Part shown: in pieces, positions 4,751-35,202 of the stretch
Layout of the letters: the number at the start of each line of letters is the position of its first letter
Numbering within the stretch: position 1 is the first letter of the stretch
Notes under the pieces: generated by a model
Database searches by the model: none
What the model was told of the DNA's origin: nothing
What the model saw: only the letters and a program-made list of their open reading frames with translations
Assembly: GCF_002210425.1 (NCBI RefSeq)
Contig: NZ_MWQK01000007.1
Span: 124,001-188,000 of the forward strand
Direction: 5' to 3'
DNA from: Fibrobacter sp. UWB2
GTDB lineage: Bacteria > Fibrobacterota > Fibrobacteria > Fibrobacterales > Fibrobacteraceae
Length of the DNA: 64,000 nt
Translations under genes and position numbers: made by a program

Positions 4751-4794
4751 TGTCATCCTGAGCGAAGGGCATAGCCCGAAGTCGAAGGATCCAG
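4751..4794 (+). repeat. TGTCATCCTGAGCG-type palindromic repeat, copy 1
   Basis: Begins TGTCATCCTGAGCGAAG and ends CGAAGTCGAAGGATCC, with a central GGGC-ATA-GCCC hairpin. The same ends flank different centres at 23656-23700 and 34440-34484. This copy lies between uvrB and the divergent small gene at 4830. Confidence 0.8.
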
Positions 4795-5142: not shown

Positions 5143-5170
5143 TGTCATTCCCGCGAATGCGGGAATCTCC
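5143..5170 (+). repeat. TGTCATTCCCGC palindromic repeat (class B)
   Basis: Short element whose core is a CCCGC-GAAT-GCGGG hairpin, starting TGTCATT and ending ATCTCC. Related copies lie at 18175 and 36165, with an inverted one at 5214-5243. Confidence 0.7.
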
Positions 5171-22556: not shown

Positions 22557-22608
22557 CAGCGAACCCCGGAAGCCTCTTAACAATGCTCAAATGTCCGGGG
22601 TGTTTTTG
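22557..22608 (+). ncRNA. short structured RNA upstream of the Abi_2 gene (AbiF-RNA-like)
   Basis: A candidate RNA of about 50 nt from the promoter at 22523. Perfect 8-bp stem ACCCCGGA (22563-22570) with TCCGGGGT (22594-22601), 23-nt loop, then GTTTTTG. It therefore reads as an autonomous small RNA with an intrinsic terminator, or a leader attenuator. The loop CCTCT (22573-22577) is complementary to AGAGG (22614-22618), the ribosome-binding site of the next gene. A conserved structured RNA upstream of abiF-type (Abi_2) genes has been described; the position fits, but I could not compare with its covariance model. Confidence 0.65.
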
Positions 22609-22622
22609 TATCCAGAGGTGAA

Positions 22623-23513
22623 ATGAAGTACTTAAAGCCGTCATTATCTTATGAACAGCAAGCCGATAGATTAATAGAAAGGGGGCTTGTTGCAGAGAAG
22701 GCGTCTTTAGTTGATATTTTATCCAATATCAGTTATTATCATTTTAGTGCTTACTTGTTCCCGTTCAAGCAAGATAATTCTGATTGTCTAAAGCCAGGAA
22801 CGTCGTTGGACCAGATTTATCGCCGTTATCGTTTTGACCGTCGTTTGAGATGTCTGATTATGGACGCACTGGAACGTGTTGAAACGGCGCTCAAGGCAAA
22901 AGTGGTAACCGTCTTTACGCAAAAGTACGGTCCCTTCGGTTATTTGGATAAGGCCAATTACAATAACTTTTGTGATGCTGATTTTCAGAAATTGATGGCG
23001 ACAATTGATGCGGAGGTAAATCGGCATATCAAAAGTAAAGAGCAGTTTGTTACCCATTATTTGGATAAGTACGACGAACCAAATTTGCCTTTTTGGATGG
23101 TCGCTGAGTTGCTGACATTTGGGAACATCTTGACGATATATCGTAAAATGCATCGCCCAATACAACAGGAAATTGCATCTGAATTTGGAGTGCCCGTTGT
23201 TATTATGGAATCTTGGTTGTTGACCTTGAATCACGTTCGTAATATCTGTGCGCACCATGCTAGATTATGGAATCGTCGTCTTGGCATTCGCCCGCAAATT
23301 CCAACAGTGAAAAAGCATCCGGAATGGGCGAAAATTTCAAACGACAAGCCATTTGTTGTTTTGATGATATTGAGCCAGATGCTAAAGAAGTGCGCTCCGA
23401 AAACAGAATGGCGAACACGCATAGAAACGCTGATGGCTGAATATTCGGATTTGCCGTTTGAATGCATAGGTTTTCTTGCCGATTGGAAAACTCACAATTT
23501 ATGGAAATGTTGA
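22623..23513 (+). CDS. Abi_2 / AbiF-type abortive infection protein
   Basis: 296 residues, soluble. Family of AbiD/AbiF phage-defence proteins with a HEPN-like fold: N-terminal KPSLSYEQQADRLIERG, the central FDRRLRCLIMDALERVE, and the putative RNase motif R-x4-H (Arg206, His211 in RNICAHHARLWNR). HEPN proteins of this kind usually cleave RNA to arrest growth, kept silent by a partner. It sits between hsdM and hsdS, with its own promoter and a structured RNA upstream, and is more AT-rich than its neighbours, suggesting horizontal acquisition into the operon. AGAGG lies 4 nt before the ATG. Activity is inferred, not shown. Confidence 0.88.
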   Translation: MKYLKPSLSYEQQADRLIERGLVAEKASLVDILSNISYYHFSAYLFPFKQDNSDCLKPGTSLDQIYRRYRFDRRLRCLIMDALERVETALKAKVVTVFTQKYGPFGYLDKANYNNFCDADFQKLMATIDAEVNRHIKSKEQFVTHYLDKYDEPNLPFWMVAELLTFGNILTIYRKMHRPIQQEIASEFGVPVVIMESWLLTLNHVRNICAHHARLWNRRLGIRPQIPTVKKHPEWAKISNDKPFVVLMILSQMLKKCAPKTEWRTRIETLMAEYSDLPFECIGFLADWKTHNLWKC

Positions 23514-23538
23514 TTTATTGTTATTATCAAGAATAAGA

Positions 23539-24960
23539 ATGAACACGAAACTCCTGAAGCAAAAAATCCTTGACCTCGCCATTCGCGGAAAGCTCACGCA
23601 ACAACTCAAAAGCGACGGCAATACCGCCGACCTGTTGAAAGAAATTTCCTCTGCATGTCATCCTGAGCGGAGCGCCAAGGGCGCGAAGTCGAAGGATCTC
23701 AAGCAAATTATCCCCCTCGACAAAAGCGAAGCCCCTTTCGAAGTTCCTGCAAATTGGGAATGGGTGAGACTGGGGGATGTGGCTAGTGATTTTCAATATG
23801 GCTCTGCAGAAAAGTCCCAAGTCGAAGGAAAGGTTGCTGTTCTTAGAATGGGGAATATAAATAGGCAAGGACAAATTGATTATGGTGATTTAGTTTATAC
23901 ATCTAATGATGCTGAAATTGCTAAATATCTTTTAAATAAAAATGATGTTTTGTTCAATCGAACAAATAGTCCTGAATGGGTTGGAAAAACCGCCATTTAC
24001 AAGGGTGAAATTCCTGCAATTTATGCAGGATATATAATTAGAATAAGACCTCATTTTAATTCTGATTATCTGAATTATTTAATGTGTAGTGATTATGAAC
24101 GTAATTGGTCAAAAGAGGTGAAAACCGATGGCGTCCATCAATCAAATATTAATGCTCAAAAATTGATTGCTTTTGCTATCCCCCTCCCTCCGTTAGCAGA
24201 ACAGCAGCGTATTGTCGCAAAAATTGAAGAAGCCTTCGCTGAAATCGATGCCATCGAAAAGAACAAGGAACTCCTCAAAACCCATATCAAGCAAACCCGC
24301 CAAAAAATCCTTGACCTCGCCATCCACGGCAAACTCGTCCCCCAAAACAAATCCGACGAACCCGCCAGCGTTTTGTTAGAACGAATAACACGTGATAACC
24401 CCCATTATGAGAAGTTGACCGATGTTCCCTTTGAAATCCCTGATTCTTGGGAATGGGTAAAGTTAGGGTATTTAGGTAATACCAATATAGGACTTACGTA
24501 TCATCCCAACGAAATTGTTGACAACGGAATTCCTGTTTTGCGTTCAAATAATATAGTAGCAGGAAAATTAGATTTAAGCAATCTGGTATGTGTTAATTCA
24601 AAGATTCTTGACAATCAATTGCTAAATACAGGCGATATATTAATTTGTGCACGAAACGGAAGCCAATCCCTAGTCGGAAAATGCGCAATAGTTGATAACT
24701 CGGCAAAGCATTTTTCTTTCGGTGCTTTTATGGCTGTTTTTCGTAGTGAATATAATCCTTTTATATATCACTATTTAAATTCAGAATACTTTAGAGATTA
24801 CATGTTTGAGGCAAATTCTACTCAAATATGTCAACTAACACAAAATATGTTGAAGAATGCGTTAATCCCATTTCCGCCATTGGCAGAGCAGAAAAGAATC
24901 GTGGATAGGATTGAAGAAATCTTTAAGTCGTTAGACGAGATTTCTCTCCATTTGGCCTAA
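23539..24960 (+). CDS. hsdS: type I restriction-modification specificity subunit HsdS
   Basis: 473 residues. DNA-recognition subunit with two target-recognition domains. Layout: conserved helix with KILDLAIRGKLTQQ (9-22), TRD1 (about 65-210, from FEVPANWEWVRLGD), central conserved region with LAEQQRIVAKIEE and a second KILDLAIHGKLVPQ, TRD2 (about 290-440, from FEIPDSWEWVKLGY), C-terminal LAEQKRIVDRIEE. Residues 40-54 are encoded by a TGTCAT repeat in frame. Both TRDs are much more AT-rich than the conserved parts, as usual for exchanged TRDs. An inverted repeat at the TRD2 start pairs with one in the silent cassette downstream. The ATG at 23539 (MNTKLL) matches the family N-terminus. Confidence 0.94.
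   Translation: MNTKLLKQKILDLAIRGKLTQQLKSDGNTADLLKEISSACHPERSAKGAKSKDLKQIIPLDKSEAPFEVPANWEWVRLGDVASDFQYGSAEKSQVEGKVAVLRMGNINRQGQIDYGDLVYTSNDAEIAKYLLNKNDVLFNRTNSPEWVGKTAIYKGEIPAIYAGYIIRIRPHFNSDYLNYLMCSDYERNWSKEVKTDGVHQSNINAQKLIAFAIPLPPLAEQQRIVAKIEEAFAEIDAIEKNKELLKTHIKQTRQKILDLAIHGKLVPQNKSDEPASVLLERITRDNPHYEKLTDVPFEIPDSWEWVKLGYLGNTNIGLTYHPNEIVDNGIPVLRSNNIVAGKLDLSNLVCVNSKILDNQLLNTGDILICARNGSQSLVGKCAIVDNSAKHFSFGAFMAVFRSEYNPFIYHYLNSEYFRDYMFEANSTQICQLTQNMLKNALIPFPPLAEQKRIVDRIEEIFKSLDEISLHLA
23560..23582 (+). repeat. 23-bp direct repeat in hsdS, copy 1
   Basis: Encodes the conserved KILDLAI helix start. An identical 23 bp occurs at 24301-24323. The two copies frame TRD1, so recombination between them would delete or swap TRD1. 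Confidence 0.85.
23656..23700 (+). repeat. TGTCATCCTGAGCG repeat inserted in frame in hsdS
   Basis: 45 bp with the same ends as the copies at 4751 and 34440 and a central GCGCC-AAGG-GCGC hairpin. Being a multiple of three it adds about 15 residues (CHPERSAKGAKSKDL) to the variable linker before TRD1. Confidence 0.85.
24301..24323 (+). repeat. 23-bp direct repeat in hsdS, copy 2
   Basis: Identical to 23560-23582; lies in the central conserved region between TRD1 and TRD2. Confidence 0.85.
24395..24414 (+). repeat. inverted repeat at the start of active TRD2 (IR-left)
   Basis: ATAACCCCCATTATGAGAAG, perfect 20-bp inverted copy at 25477-25496. Identity stops sharply on both sides, and the reading frame across it (NPHYEK) is the same in both copies. 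Confidence 0.9.
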
Positions 24961-25500
24961 TGTAGAAAACAGTTCCTCTATCTTTGCAACAATTCGAGAT
25001 TGCTCAGCAAGCGGAGGGAGTGGAACCACGAGAGATAACAAATCATTGGCCGACAAGGATGTTATCCCCACACCACGTCCATTTAAGTTTCCCTTTTCTT
25101 TATTATACCTAATGACGTATAGATAAAAAACATTGCTCAAAGAAACAGATTTCGGGCGAAGTCTTGAAATATGATTTTGAAAACAAATGTCGTAATCAAA
25201 ATTCCAAATAGCGGCACGCCCTACATCTCCTCCGTTGCAAAGAAGTAGATCACCTTTTTTGGCGGTACACTTATCCAACTCATCCTCTGTAAAATACATG
25301 GACCGTACTTCAGACAAGTCAAATTCGCACCAATATAAATTTGAAGTGGTGATATAATTTCTCTGTATTCCTGTTGAATTTGCCTTTTTTAGCGCTTTGC
25401 CAGTTGTGTGAAAAAACAAATTTCCTAGCTTGCACCACACCCAATTTTGGGGTATTTCAAAAGGTTCGTCCTCTATCTTCTCATAATGGGGGTTATGCCT
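24931..25500 (-). pseudogene. silent inverted hsdS half-gene (alternative TRD cassette)
   Basis: Open frame of about 189 codons with no start codon of its own; it begins just after a TGA at 25503-25501 and reads HNPHYEKIEDEPFEIPQNWVWCKLGN, parallel to the active TRD2 start. It continues through a different, AT-rich TRD to a normal C-terminus (LPPLAEQSRIVAKIEEL...). Its 3' end overlaps that of hsdS convergently (24931-24960). It looks like a storage cassette for HsdS rather than a decayed gene: inversion at the 20-bp repeats would join it in frame to the hsdS N-terminal half. A GTG-initiated fragment (from 25440) is also possible but lacks the domain start. Confidence 0.88.
25477..25496 (-). 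repeat. inverted repeat at the start of the silent TRD (IR-right)
   Basis: Perfect reverse complement of 24395-24414. The segment between the repeats is about 1.06 kb. Confidence 0.9.
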
Positions 25501-25611: not shown

Positions 25612-26661
25612 ATGAGCAAGCAGAATGTGTCGACTTTTACCGCATCAAAATCAGCCGGCAAAAACGATTTCTCCCTGATAGACGAAAATTTCCTGAAATC
25701 CAGAATCTACACGATTCGTGGTCTCAAGGTGATGTTGGATTCCGACTTGGCGGAAATTTATGGGTATGACAAAAAGGTTTTTAACCAGCAGGTCAAAAAT
25801 AATATTGAAAAGTTTGACGATGATTTTCGGTTTCAGCTTGATCGCAATGAACTTGCAAATCTTATATCCCTGCATCCGACATCAGACTTGAAGTCAAAAT
25901 TTTTGACTTCAAGTTGGGGCGGCTTGCGAAAAATGCCATTTGCCTTTACCGAACAGGGTATTTATATGCTCATGACGGTCCTCAAAGGGGAACAGGCTAT
26001 AGCTCAAAGCAAGGCTCTGATTCGCCTTTTCAAGCAGATGAAGGACTACATTGTTTCCGAGAACATGCAGTTGCTCAACGTGGGCAATAGTCTGCAAATT
26101 TCCTCTTATATGGTTCAAAATACAAGGGAAATTGCAAAAATTCGTGGAGAACTTGCCGAAACCCGCACGGATGTTTTTGCAATGAAGTCTGATTTGCAGA
26201 AGGTAATGGAAAACTTCATTGATCCTTCGATGTTTAAGCACTTCTTGATTTTGAACGGACAGAAACTTGAAGCCGATGTTGCGTATGCGCAAATTTATGG
26301 TATGGCAAAGAAGTCGGTGGTCATTATCGACAATTATGTGGATGTCAAGACTTTAGATTTACTGCGGAATGTCGCCAAGGGTATTGTCATTACGATTTTC
26401 AGTGATCAATATGGAAGAACCCGGTTGACCGAGAACATGTTGGCTGATTTTAGGGTCGCGCGCCAAGATGTTGTGCTTGAAGATCCGAAAACAGCCGGAA
26501 ATATATTTCATGACCGCTATATACTGCTTGATTTTGGTTCAAAGAACGAGAAAATATTCCACTGCGGAGCATCTTCCAAAGATGCCGGGAACAAGATTAC
26601 GTCTATTGTCCAGTTGGATGATGTTTCGATTTACCATGCCGTGTTTGAGAACTTGTTATGA
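25612..26661 (+). CDS. ORF6N-domain protein with C-terminal PLD-like region
   Basis: 349 residues, soluble. The N-terminal ORF6N domain (about 25-125: RIYTIRGLKVMLDSDLAEIYGY, NNIEKFDDDFRFQL, LRKMPFAFTEQGIYML) is a KilA-N-like DNA-binding domain common in phages and next to type I restriction loci. A coiled-coil-like middle (about 150-200) leads to a C-terminal region with VVIIDNYVDVKTLDLL, VITIFSD, NIFHDRYILLDF and HCGASSKDAG. This resembles one phospholipase-D repeat, but HxK is replaced by HDR, so catalysis is doubtful. It overlaps the recombinase gene by 4 bp (ATGA), implying translational coupling and a shared role, perhaps directing or restraining inversion at hsdS. Confidence 0.82.
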   Translation: MSKQNVSTFTASKSAGKNDFSLIDENFLKSRIYTIRGLKVMLDSDLAEIYGYDKKVFNQQVKNNIEKFDDDFRFQLDRNELANLISLHPTSDLKSKFLTSSWGGLRKMPFAFTEQGIYMLMTVLKGEQAIAQSKALIRLFKQMKDYIVSENMQLLNVGNSLQISSYMVQNTREIAKIRGELAETRTDVFAMKSDLQKVMENFIDPSMFKHFLILNGQKLEADVAYAQIYGMAKKSVVIIDNYVDVKTLDLLRNVAKGIVITIFSDQYGRTRLTENMLADFRVARQDVVLEDPKTAGNIFHDRYILLDFGSKNEKIFHCGASSKDAGNKITSIVQLDDVSIYHAVFENLL

Positions 26662-27488
26662 ACTGCTTCGTTTTCTACCTTGCAGAAAGACCTTCGTTTT
26701 ACCAGTATCTGGAAGGGCAGAACCTTGCTGTCAATACGATGGATTCGTATTGCTGGACAGCGGACTTCTTCAAGTCGCATTTCGGACGGTTCGGTCGTAA
26801 GTCGCTGGCTGATTATAAGAGTTTTCTTTTAGAAAATTACAAACCCAAAACTGTTAATTTGCGAATTCAGGGCATCAACAAGTATTTGGATTTTGCAGGC
26901 AAATCGAAGTTACGGATCAAGAATGTCAAGGTTCAGCAAAAAAGTTTTCTGGAAAATGTCATTAGCGATGCCGATTACAAATTTTTGAAAACTAGTCTAT
27001 TGCAAGATGGTCAAATCAAGTGGTATTTTGTAGTGTGGTTTCTTTCGGCGACGGGCGCCCGCGTAGGGGAGCTTGTGAAACTCAAAGTGGAACATGTCGA
27101 GTGCGGATTTTTTGACATCTACGGAAAAGGTGGAAAGTTGCGTCGGCTCTACATTCCTGAGACTTTGCAAAAAGAAGCTTTGAAATGGCTTGCGAAGGAT
27201 GGACGGTCGAGTGGATACCTTTTCTTGAATCGTTTTGGCAAGCAAATTACCCCGCGGGGAATTGCCTCGCAACTGAAAACGTTCGCAAAGAAATATGGCC
27301 TAGACGAAGCCGTTGTTTATCCCCATTCGTTCCGTCACCGGTTTGCCAAGAATTTCTTGGAGAAACGGAATGACATCGCTCTGCTTGCTGATCTCATGGG
27401 GCACGAACATATCGAAACTACACGTATATATTTGCGCCAGACTGCAAGTGAACAACGTGAAGTTGTGAATAAGGTGGTGACGTGGTAA
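26658..27488 (+). CDS. tyrosine recombinase, candidate hsdS invertase
   Basis: 276 residues. N-terminal SAM-like core-binding domain (about 5-95) and C-terminal catalytic domain with the complete set: Arg135 (GARVGEL), Lys160 (GKGGK), His223 and Arg226 (HSFRHRF), His249 (GHEHIETT), Tyr258 (IYLR). The size matches the short XerC/D-like recombinases found next to invertible hsdS genes in Bacteroidota and Firmicutes. It starts inside the last codons of the ORF6N gene. The nearest plausible substrate is the 20-bp inverted repeat pair in hsdS, 1.2 kb upstream. The role as HsdS invertase is inference. Confidence 0.92.
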   Translation: MNCFVFYLAERPSFYQYLEGQNLAVNTMDSYCWTADFFKSHFGRFGRKSLADYKSFLLENYKPKTVNLRIQGINKYLDFAGKSKLRIKNVKVQQKSFLENVISDADYKFLKTSLLQDGQIKWYFVVWFLSATGARVGELVKLKVEHVECGFFDIYGKGGKLRRLYIPETLQKEALKWLAKDGRSSGYLFLNRFGKQITPRGIASQLKTFAKKYGLDEAVVYPHSFRHRFAKNFLEKRNDIALLADLMGHEHIETTRIYLRQTASEQREVVNKVVTW

Positions 27489-33830: not shown

Positions 33831-33900
33831 CATCGTTGCGATACTAGAAACTAATAACTATTAACTAGTAACTAAATTTTAAATTGCTATTTTAATGGCT

Positions 33901-35202
33901 ATGAATCTCGCTGGAAAGAAAATCCTTCTTGGAGTCTCGGGCGGAATTGCCGCCTACAAGTCTTGTGAACTCTTGCGCCTGTTGCAAAAGAAAGGCGCCG
34001 AAGTGCGCGTCTGCATGACCGAAGCCGCTACACAGTTCGTGGCCCCGCTTACGTTTGCAAGCCTCTCCAAGTGCCCGGTTTACCTGAAAAATGGCGCCGT
34101 TGAAGCGCGCCCGTTCCAGCATATCGATTTCCCGCGTTGGGCCGACCTTTATCTCGTCGTTCCGGCGACCGCGAATGTCATCGGAAAATTTGTCTATGGC
34201 ATTGCTGATGACCCAGTGAGCCTTTGCTTTATGAGCTGCACGGGTCCGCGTTTTATTGCCCCCGCAATGAATGTCGCGATGTTCAATTCCCCGGCGGTCA
34301 AGCGCAACCTCGAAACGCTCCGCAGTTTTGAAAATACGTTCGTGATGGACAGCCCGGCGGGCGAACTCGCCTGTGGCGAAGTTGGCAAAGGTCGCCTCCT
34401 CGACCCTGCGGAAATCGTGGAATATTTGGAAGCTAGTAGTGTCATCCTGAGCGAAGTGCCGCGCGCGAAGTCGAAGGATCTTCAAGCTCTTCCTGCTGAA
34501 AATGAAGTGGATCCGACGCTTCCCGGTTACGGCAAGAAGGTCCTCATCACGGCTGGTCGCACCGAAGAAGCGATTGACCCGGTGCGTTACATTAGCAACC
34601 GCAGCAGCGGAAAGACTGCTGTTGCCATTGCCGCGACGTTCCTGGCGAACGGCTTTGATGTGAGCGTTGTCGCTGGCCCGATGGAAGCTGAATTTCCGGG
34701 TGCCGTCCACGTGACAAAAATCAAGAGCGCTTGCGACATGCATAAGGCTGTTCTTGAACAGATGAAGAATGCCGATGTGCTCGTGCATTGCGCCGCCGTG
34801 GCCGATTATCGCCCGAAGGTGGCCGCTACAGAAAAAATCAAGGATAGCCGTAGTCAGCTCGTTTTGGAACTTGAACCGAATCCGAACATCTTGCGTGACA
34901 GCGTCGCGCAAAAGCGTGCGGACCAGGTCATTGTCGGTTTTGCGCTTGAAACGGACCACTTCAAGGAACATGCGGCCGAGAAGCTCAAGAAGAGCGGCGC
35001 CGATGCGCTACTCCTCAATGCCCCTGTGGCTGCGAACAGCGGTTTTGGTTTTGACGAAGTCCGTTACACGTTAATCCGCGCGAACTCTCGCAATGCACAA
35101 AATGCGGCTGAGGTTGAAATTCCCGAGATGAAGATGGGTTCTAAAATCGATCTCGCACAAGAAATTGTAGATTTTAGCCTTGATCAGTTAAAGAACGCTT
35201 AG
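33901..35202 (+). CDS. coaBC: bifunctional phosphopantothenoylcysteine decarboxylase / phosphopantothenate-cysteine ligase
   Basis: 433 residues. Two steps of coenzyme A synthesis: CoaB joins cysteine to 4'-phosphopantothenate and CoaC decarboxylates the product (FMN). CoaC domain about 1-178: LLGVSGGIAAYKS, catalytic His74 in QHIDFPRWADL, PAMN (121-124), active Cys in GELACGEVGKGRL (about 158). CoaB domain about 210-433: VLITAGRTEEAIDPVRYISNRSSGK. Residues 181-195 between the domains come from an in-frame TGTCAT repeat. An in-frame ATG at 33895 exists; 33901 (MNLAGKKI) fits the family start and lies 7 nt after a TATTTT box, suggesting a leaderless mRNA. Confidence 0.95.
   Translation: MNLAGKKILLGVSGGIAAYKSCELLRLLQKKGAEVRVCMTEAATQFVAPLTFASLSKCPVYLKNGAVEARPFQHIDFPRWADLYLVVPATANVIGKFVYGIADDPVSLCFMSCTGPRFIAPAMNVAMFNSPAVKRNLETLRSFENTFVMDSPAGELACGEVGKGRLLDPAEIVEYLEASSVILSEVPRAKSKDLQALPAENEVDPTLPGYGKKVLITAGRTEEAIDPVRYISNRSSGKTAVAIAATFLANGFDVSVVAGPMEAEFPGAVHVTKIKSACDMHKAVLEQMKNADVLVHCAAVADYRPKVAATEKIKDSRSQLVLELEPNPNILRDSVAQKRADQVIVGFALETDHFKEHAAEKLKKSGADALLLNAPVAANSGFGFDEVRYTLIRANSRNAQNAAEVEIPEMKMGSKIDLAQEIVDFSLDQLKNA
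34440..34484 (+). repeat. TGTCATCCTGAGCG repeat inserted in frame in coaBC
   Basis: Same ends as the copies at 4751 and 23656, with central GTGCCGCGCGC. It encodes VILSEVPRAKSKDLQ in the CoaC-CoaB linker. The first half is read in a different frame from the copy in hsdS and the second half in the same frame. Confidence 0.85.

Follow-up and report, generated by a model that had tools for sequence, protein, structure and literature searches.

A dispersed short repeat in the CoaBC linker of Fibrobacter, a probable landing site of many repeat families

A stretch of 42-45 nt in the coaBC gene of Fibrobacter sp. UWB2 is, with high probability, an inserted non-autonomous REP/RPE-like repeat, lying in a tolerant linker that has repeatedly gained, lost and overwritten unrelated repeat families. 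CoaBC is an essential coenzyme A enzyme, and most known cases of palindromic repeats that decorate proteins come from Rickettsia, Wolbachia and some REP-rich genomes. Read in this way, the linker of one essential enzyme would have preserved a record of dozens of gain and loss events, and the long-standing question of whether insertions of this sort affect proteins or are neutral becomes testable by comparison of species and by linker swaps. Caution is advised with the repeat-derived peptides (CHPERS, VILSE, SFDFAQDD, SLRMT), which should be treated as inserts when met in proteins, not as conserved motifs. The window is the whole stretch of 64,000 nt that was analysed, and positions refer to it unless a locus is named.

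The element in coaBC and its other copies

An earlier note had placed a palindromic repeat in frame in the linker between the CoaC and CoaB domains, and had recognized the same element between genes at 4751 and inside hsdS. The copies and the genes concerned are the following.

33895..35202, plus strand: coaBC gene, 435 aa (Pfam domains, AlphaFold)
34441..34482, plus strand: element copy in coaBC, in frame, coding for VILSEVPRAKSKDL (residues 183-196)
4752..4793, plus strand: intergenic element copy upstream of the divergently read uvrB, with a perfect inner hairpin (GGGCATAGCCC)
23476..24960, plus strand: hsdS open reading frame, likely start near 23542
23656..23698, plus strand: element copy in hsdS, in frame, coding for CHPERSAKGAKSKDL

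The dispersed repeat follows the pattern (C/T)GTCATCCTGAGCGNAG...CGAAGGATC(C/T)A. Its copy in coaBC has the DNA sequence GTCATCCTGAGCGAAGTGCCGCGCGCGAAGTCGAAGGATCTT (CoaBC residues V183-L196) and a TGTC tag beginning at 34440; codons 34441-34485 read VILSEVPRAKSKDLQ. Arm matches confirmed all three places: the left arm GTCATCCTGAGCGAAG was exact at 4752 and 34441 and had one mismatch at 23657, and the right arm CGAAGTCGAAGGATC was exact at 4777, 23684 and 34466. When up to three mismatches were allowed, the left arm was found four times in the window, compared to a mean of 0.54 in shuffled sequences, and none of 100 shuffles contained four or more matches.

Pfam assigned the Flavoprotein (CoaC) domain to residues 8-176 and the DFP (CoaB) domain to residues 213-394, with a linker at about 177-212; the 14-15 residues encoded by the element are therefore within the predicted linker between conserved domains. 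The reading frame is open across the copy, as had been claimed. The AlphaFold model of CoaBC was of moderate quality (mean pLDDT 68, 16 sequences) and predicted the linker as coil, residues 185-203 having pLDDT values below 50. The term palindromic held only in part: the insert matches the dispersed repeat in sequence but is a poor palindrome, in which good pairing is limited to the outer ATCCT/AGGAT arms and the inner hairpin is degraded. Its fold was no better than that of shuffled sequences (RNA z +0.39, DNA z +1.20). Fold energy was rejected as proof of palindromy, since shuffles fold equally well, and the identity of the element is thus based on sequence and not on fold energy.

Elsewhere in and around coaBC, the C-terminal loop of CoaB (before EIPEMKMGSK, window about 35085-35120) is a second region of variable length and, in certain relatives (L100, L063), contains repeats resembling SGDSRNA. 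Immediately 5' of the gene, at 33849-33874, is an A+T-rich repeat motif, the AACTAATAACTATTAACTAGTAACTA tract. Further short inverted repeats, belonging to different families (GTCATTCCCGC, CCTGAGCCTGTCGAAGG, GTCATGCCCGC), are scattered at 5145, 6430, 18177 and 36167.

The two-armed pattern occurred 20 times in the window's own genome (G000, 3.53 Mb) and the half-element pattern 29 times; both reversed patterns gave 0 matches. All 29 copies carry a (C/T)GTC tag (19 TGTC, 10 CGTC). The stem starts with complementary AT, as ATCCT...AGGAT in 26 of 28 copies and with AGGAC at the end in the other 2, and a CCA or CTA tail follows in 23 of 28 (13 CCA, 10 CTA). An outer stem of 5 bp is succeeded by mismatches and then by a variable inner part; from tag to stem end the element measures 26-44 nt. 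Arm variants, read by eye, stay complementary (ATCCT/AGGAT, GTCCT/AGGAC, ACCCT/AGGGT), and this covariation suggests that the hairpin may matter for spread.

The 29 half-element loci were inspected individually. Five of them are inside recognizable genes (coaBC, hsdS, tilS, a NUDIX hydrolase and an RlmKL-like methyltransferase), all in open frames and all outside the reported Pfam-matched stretches. The readings used by real genes include VILSE, CHPERS, SFDFAQDD, SLRMT and ILRLR...QDD. The remaining copies are intergenic or overlap unconvincing open reading frames, with one exception at L002: around position 1500 of this locus a gene that immediately precedes a BioF-like gene has, as judged by eye, its C-terminal residues (CHPERRA) encoded by the copy. 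Far fewer copies lie in genes than expected (p about 5e-18 for at most 5 intragenic copies among 29, under an assumed figure of 88% coding genome), as purging of most such insertions would predict.

Within the phylum, the element is multi-copy and nearly restricted to the genus Fibrobacter. It was present in all 41 Fibrobacter genomes of the phylum sample, with 4-55 copies each, whereas 60 genomes of other Fibrobacterota genera together had 8 matches, of which a single sister genus accounted for 7; reversed controls gave 0. Four genomes of a larger genus sample (70-83% completeness) had 0 copies. Rfam contained no family matching the element, and a search of a plasmid collection gave two weak matches only.

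The CoaBC linker across relatives

CoaBC was compared over some 80 Fibrobacter loci, giving 67 distinct rows, and 18 rows from other Fibrobacterota genera. The linker has 28-106 residues in the 67 Fibrobacter rows and 6-23 in the 18 others (Mann-Whitney p = 4e-11, for rows that are not phylogenetically independent). Median identity to the CoaBC of the window is about 81% for the domains and 33% for the linker columns. The linker expansion is specific to the genus, different multi-copy repeats occupy the same place depending on the species, and one exact insertion separates relatives.

The residues in question are not shared by all relatives with normal substitution patterns. Among the loci read, the window's element is common, almost unchanged, only to the window's species and three close relatives (L021, L022, L099, L100), and in one more species (L029) this position is occupied by a related copy. 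Other species have VTLSETKGP (an ACCCT/AGGGT version), CHPREGGDLP, LSLSKG, PVLSNAEA, MPDSVPA, HSGLEPES, NNEQLTMNN, YELLSTNY, runs of heptamers (RDERRETRD) or a PLA...GGHPRNAP unit of larger size at this place. These names are labels taken from the peptides. About a dozen repeat types were recognized in the linker, the set varying by species. With patterns devised for this analysis, a named repeat was found in 59 of 67 rows and two or more in 18, corresponding to about 48 parsimony changes.

Joined linkers of seven genomes were searched against those genomes, resulting in at least 39-56 matches per genome; each kind of linker segment recurs outside coaBC in its own genome. In G060 at least ten further copies of the CHPREGGDLP segment (query 678-709) were counted, G047 has about twenty of the heptamer tract among the matches listed, and the window's element (query 4-50) was found at several places each in G000, G046 and G044.

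The earlier note had proposed a search for a clean insertion boundary between strains, and such boundaries were found for other repeats but not for this copy. The linkers of L066 and of L070/L074 are otherwise similar, and a single difference of exactly 24 nt (CCTGTGCTGAGCAACGCCGAAGCA) at this site sets them apart as an exact insertion of another repeat. Compared to L100, L099 has an additional 21 nt, a tract of heptamer repeats immediately 5' of the window's element. In several other linker events a few flanking codons were replaced as well, and the aligned linker insertions showed no clear target-site duplications. No intact empty site for the window's own copy was present among the relatives read, because in the next relatives this place is already taken by other repeats; we therefore infer its insertion event.

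Known repeat systems, the mover and rival explanations

The note had likened the insert to Rickettsia palindromic elements. The analogy is apt, but the resemblance is to the short CGTC-tagged class of RPE-4 and RPE-6 and not to RPE-1 of 105-146 bp. CGTC-tagged REPs, which include Rickettsia RPE-4 and RPE-6 (PMC3733652, 2013), share with the Fibrobacter element a C/TGTC tag at one end (CCTC being a further variant in that group), a stem start in which AT is paired with AT, a short unpaired tail of CCA type, and scattered copies of which some are intragenic and in frame. They have no transposase association, and the same applies to the Fibrobacter element as to Y1 (Y1_Tnp being the type tested). 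They differ in a stem of 8-9 bp with a loop of 4-5 nt, whereas the Fibrobacter stem is interrupted (5 bp, mismatches, variable inner part), and in their predominant occurrence as HH dimers, none of which was seen near the Fibrobacter copies (the 200 bp or so around each of the 29 contained no copy on the opposite strand). Since the fit extends to tag, stem start and tail but not to stem length, loop length or dimer habit, the element is, judged by these sequence features, REP/CGTC-like and not a member of the CGTC-tagged REPs. Fibrobacter is not mentioned in PMC3733652.

Like repeats of the RPE-1 type (Ogata et al. 2000, reviewed in PMC2229807), the element is fused in frame into conserved housekeeping genes whose protein presumably works; in Fibrobacter such fusions concern coaBC, hsdS, tilS, the NUDIX gene and the RlmKL-like gene. 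The RPE-1 type measures 105-146 bp with 12-bp terminal inverted repeats, in contrast to 26-44 nt here. A further difference is that Fibrobacter, a gut genus, is not an obligate endosymbiont and shows the same phenomenon with numerous repeat families sharing the same linkers. GTAG REPs with RAYT transposases (REPtrons; PMC3733652) are likewise short, palindromic, dispersed units with some intragenic copies, but they combine a GTAG tag with a RAYT (Y1_Tnp) gene, whereas the tag here is C/TGTC and the own genome contains no PF01797 match.

In-frame palindromic repeats have been described in Rickettsia and Wolbachia, and intragenic REPs are a further known case (PMC2229807, PMC3733652). Different REPs are present at about the same site of recB in X. 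campestris and X. oryzae, and flexible linkers have been proposed as neutral sites (PMC3733652). The element is not a categorically new kind; its genus-wide extent and the many-family landing site appear unreported. In agreement with the note, which knew of no report for this lineage, none was found for Fibrobacter in the open-access literature. Judged by title and abstract, none of the papers found dealt with palindromic or interspersed repeats in Fibrobacter, a literature text search with DNA or peptide strings of the element gave unrelated matches only, and no open-access report of one linker hosting so many repeat families was found.

The explanation that we favour is that a short non-autonomous REP/RPE-like dispersed repeat would have multiplied within the genus. 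Because four of its six reading frames contain no internal stop, a copy landing in phase in a disordered linker or loop would only lengthen the protein and would escape purifying selection; in coding DNA, repeats would survive only in phase and in unconstrained linkers. The CoaC-CoaB linker would be such a tolerant site, in which unrelated repeat families are gained, lost and overwritten across Fibrobacter species. The coaBC copy would then have arrived by insertion and be neutral. We infer that the repeat spreads as selfish DNA by a trans-acting or a replication/repair-based route, and most likely the repeats in general are selfish or passively spreading and non-autonomous.

A RAYT/Y1 transposase was considered as the current mover and is not supported, since neither the own genome nor copy-rich genomes such as G035 and G044 have a Y1 transposase and no element copy was located near six Y1 loci checked in congeners. 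PF01797 was detected in 20 of 61 Fibrobacter genomes sampled and was absent in 40 of the other 60 congeners. It is possible, if rather doubtful, that an active transposase-independent process, e.g. hairpin template switching in replication or repair, copies unrelated short repeats into permissive coding sites, and that, throughout the genus, linkers and loops of housekeeping proteins are largely repeat-derived and change from one species to the next.

Host-functional DNA or RNA signals (transcription, mRNA stability, gyrase or nucleoid sites), with the coding copies as regulatory sites kept in genes, would fit the mostly intergenic location and the paired arms kept in several families; this explanation is improbable, given that about a dozen unrelated repeat types use the coaBC site, copy number ranges from 0 to 55 among congeners and the inner hairpin is lost in the coaBC copy. 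Little more credit is due to diversifying or length selection on the Fibrobacter linker itself, e.g. for tuning of CoaBC assembly, with repeats as raw material only. The genus minimum of 28 residues, above the maximum of 23 in other genera, speaks for such selection; against it, linker length and sequence are extremely variable without a conserved motif, and unrelated proteins (NUDIX, TilS, HsdS, RlmKL-like) behave alike. Many of the relatives are metagenome-assembled genomes, which raises the question of assembly or binning artefacts, but these are a very improbable cause because the pattern is also present in the near-complete, low-contig genomes G000, G044, G046, G050 and G098 and the element is common to four related species. 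An ordinary divergent linker that resembles the intergenic repeat by chance is hardly credible: the linker does evolve fast, but exact or near-exact 16-mer and 15-mer matches occur at two other places in the window, and chance likeness is refuted by the copy-number controls (20 two-armed copies in the genome, 0 in the control).

Other proteins with repeat-type inserts

Insertion of non-autonomous repeats into tolerant sites, as favoured for coaBC, may extend to further proteins. In aligned relatives the same NUDIX loop and the same TilS linker are filled with repeat-like stretches that differ between species, and HsdS relatives carry another repeat-like stretch, TSLRAKRGNPSP, at the site where HsdS of the window has CHPERSAKGAKSKDL. 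The loop of the NUDIX hydrolase (L016, minus-strand open reading frame 1250-1879; relatives L129-L158) is located just after the Nudix box and looks like a second multi-family landing site across Fibrobacter. Several repeat-type segments, TRDES, PLAS..GTPRNAP, ILRLRAPRSAQDD and VTLSETKGPVKSC, occur in one protein, the RlmKL-like rRNA methyltransferase (L209:769-2238, plus strand; G000:C4:4900-7900); VTLSETKGPVKSC is the same peptide as in sister CoaBC linkers.

The type I restriction locus (window 23476-25440 and 26658-27488) comprises hsdS, after which come a partial hsdS in opposite orientation (24931-25440) and a gene resembling tyrosine recombinases. Similar inverted hsdS pairs are present in the congeners G003, G008, G044 and G047, and these arrangements suggest that hsdS may be a phase-variable, inverting specificity gene. 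Inside the same locus, an abiF RNA (Rfam RF03085, above gathering score) was identified at 22565-22600, directly 5' of an Abi-like gene at 22623-23513.
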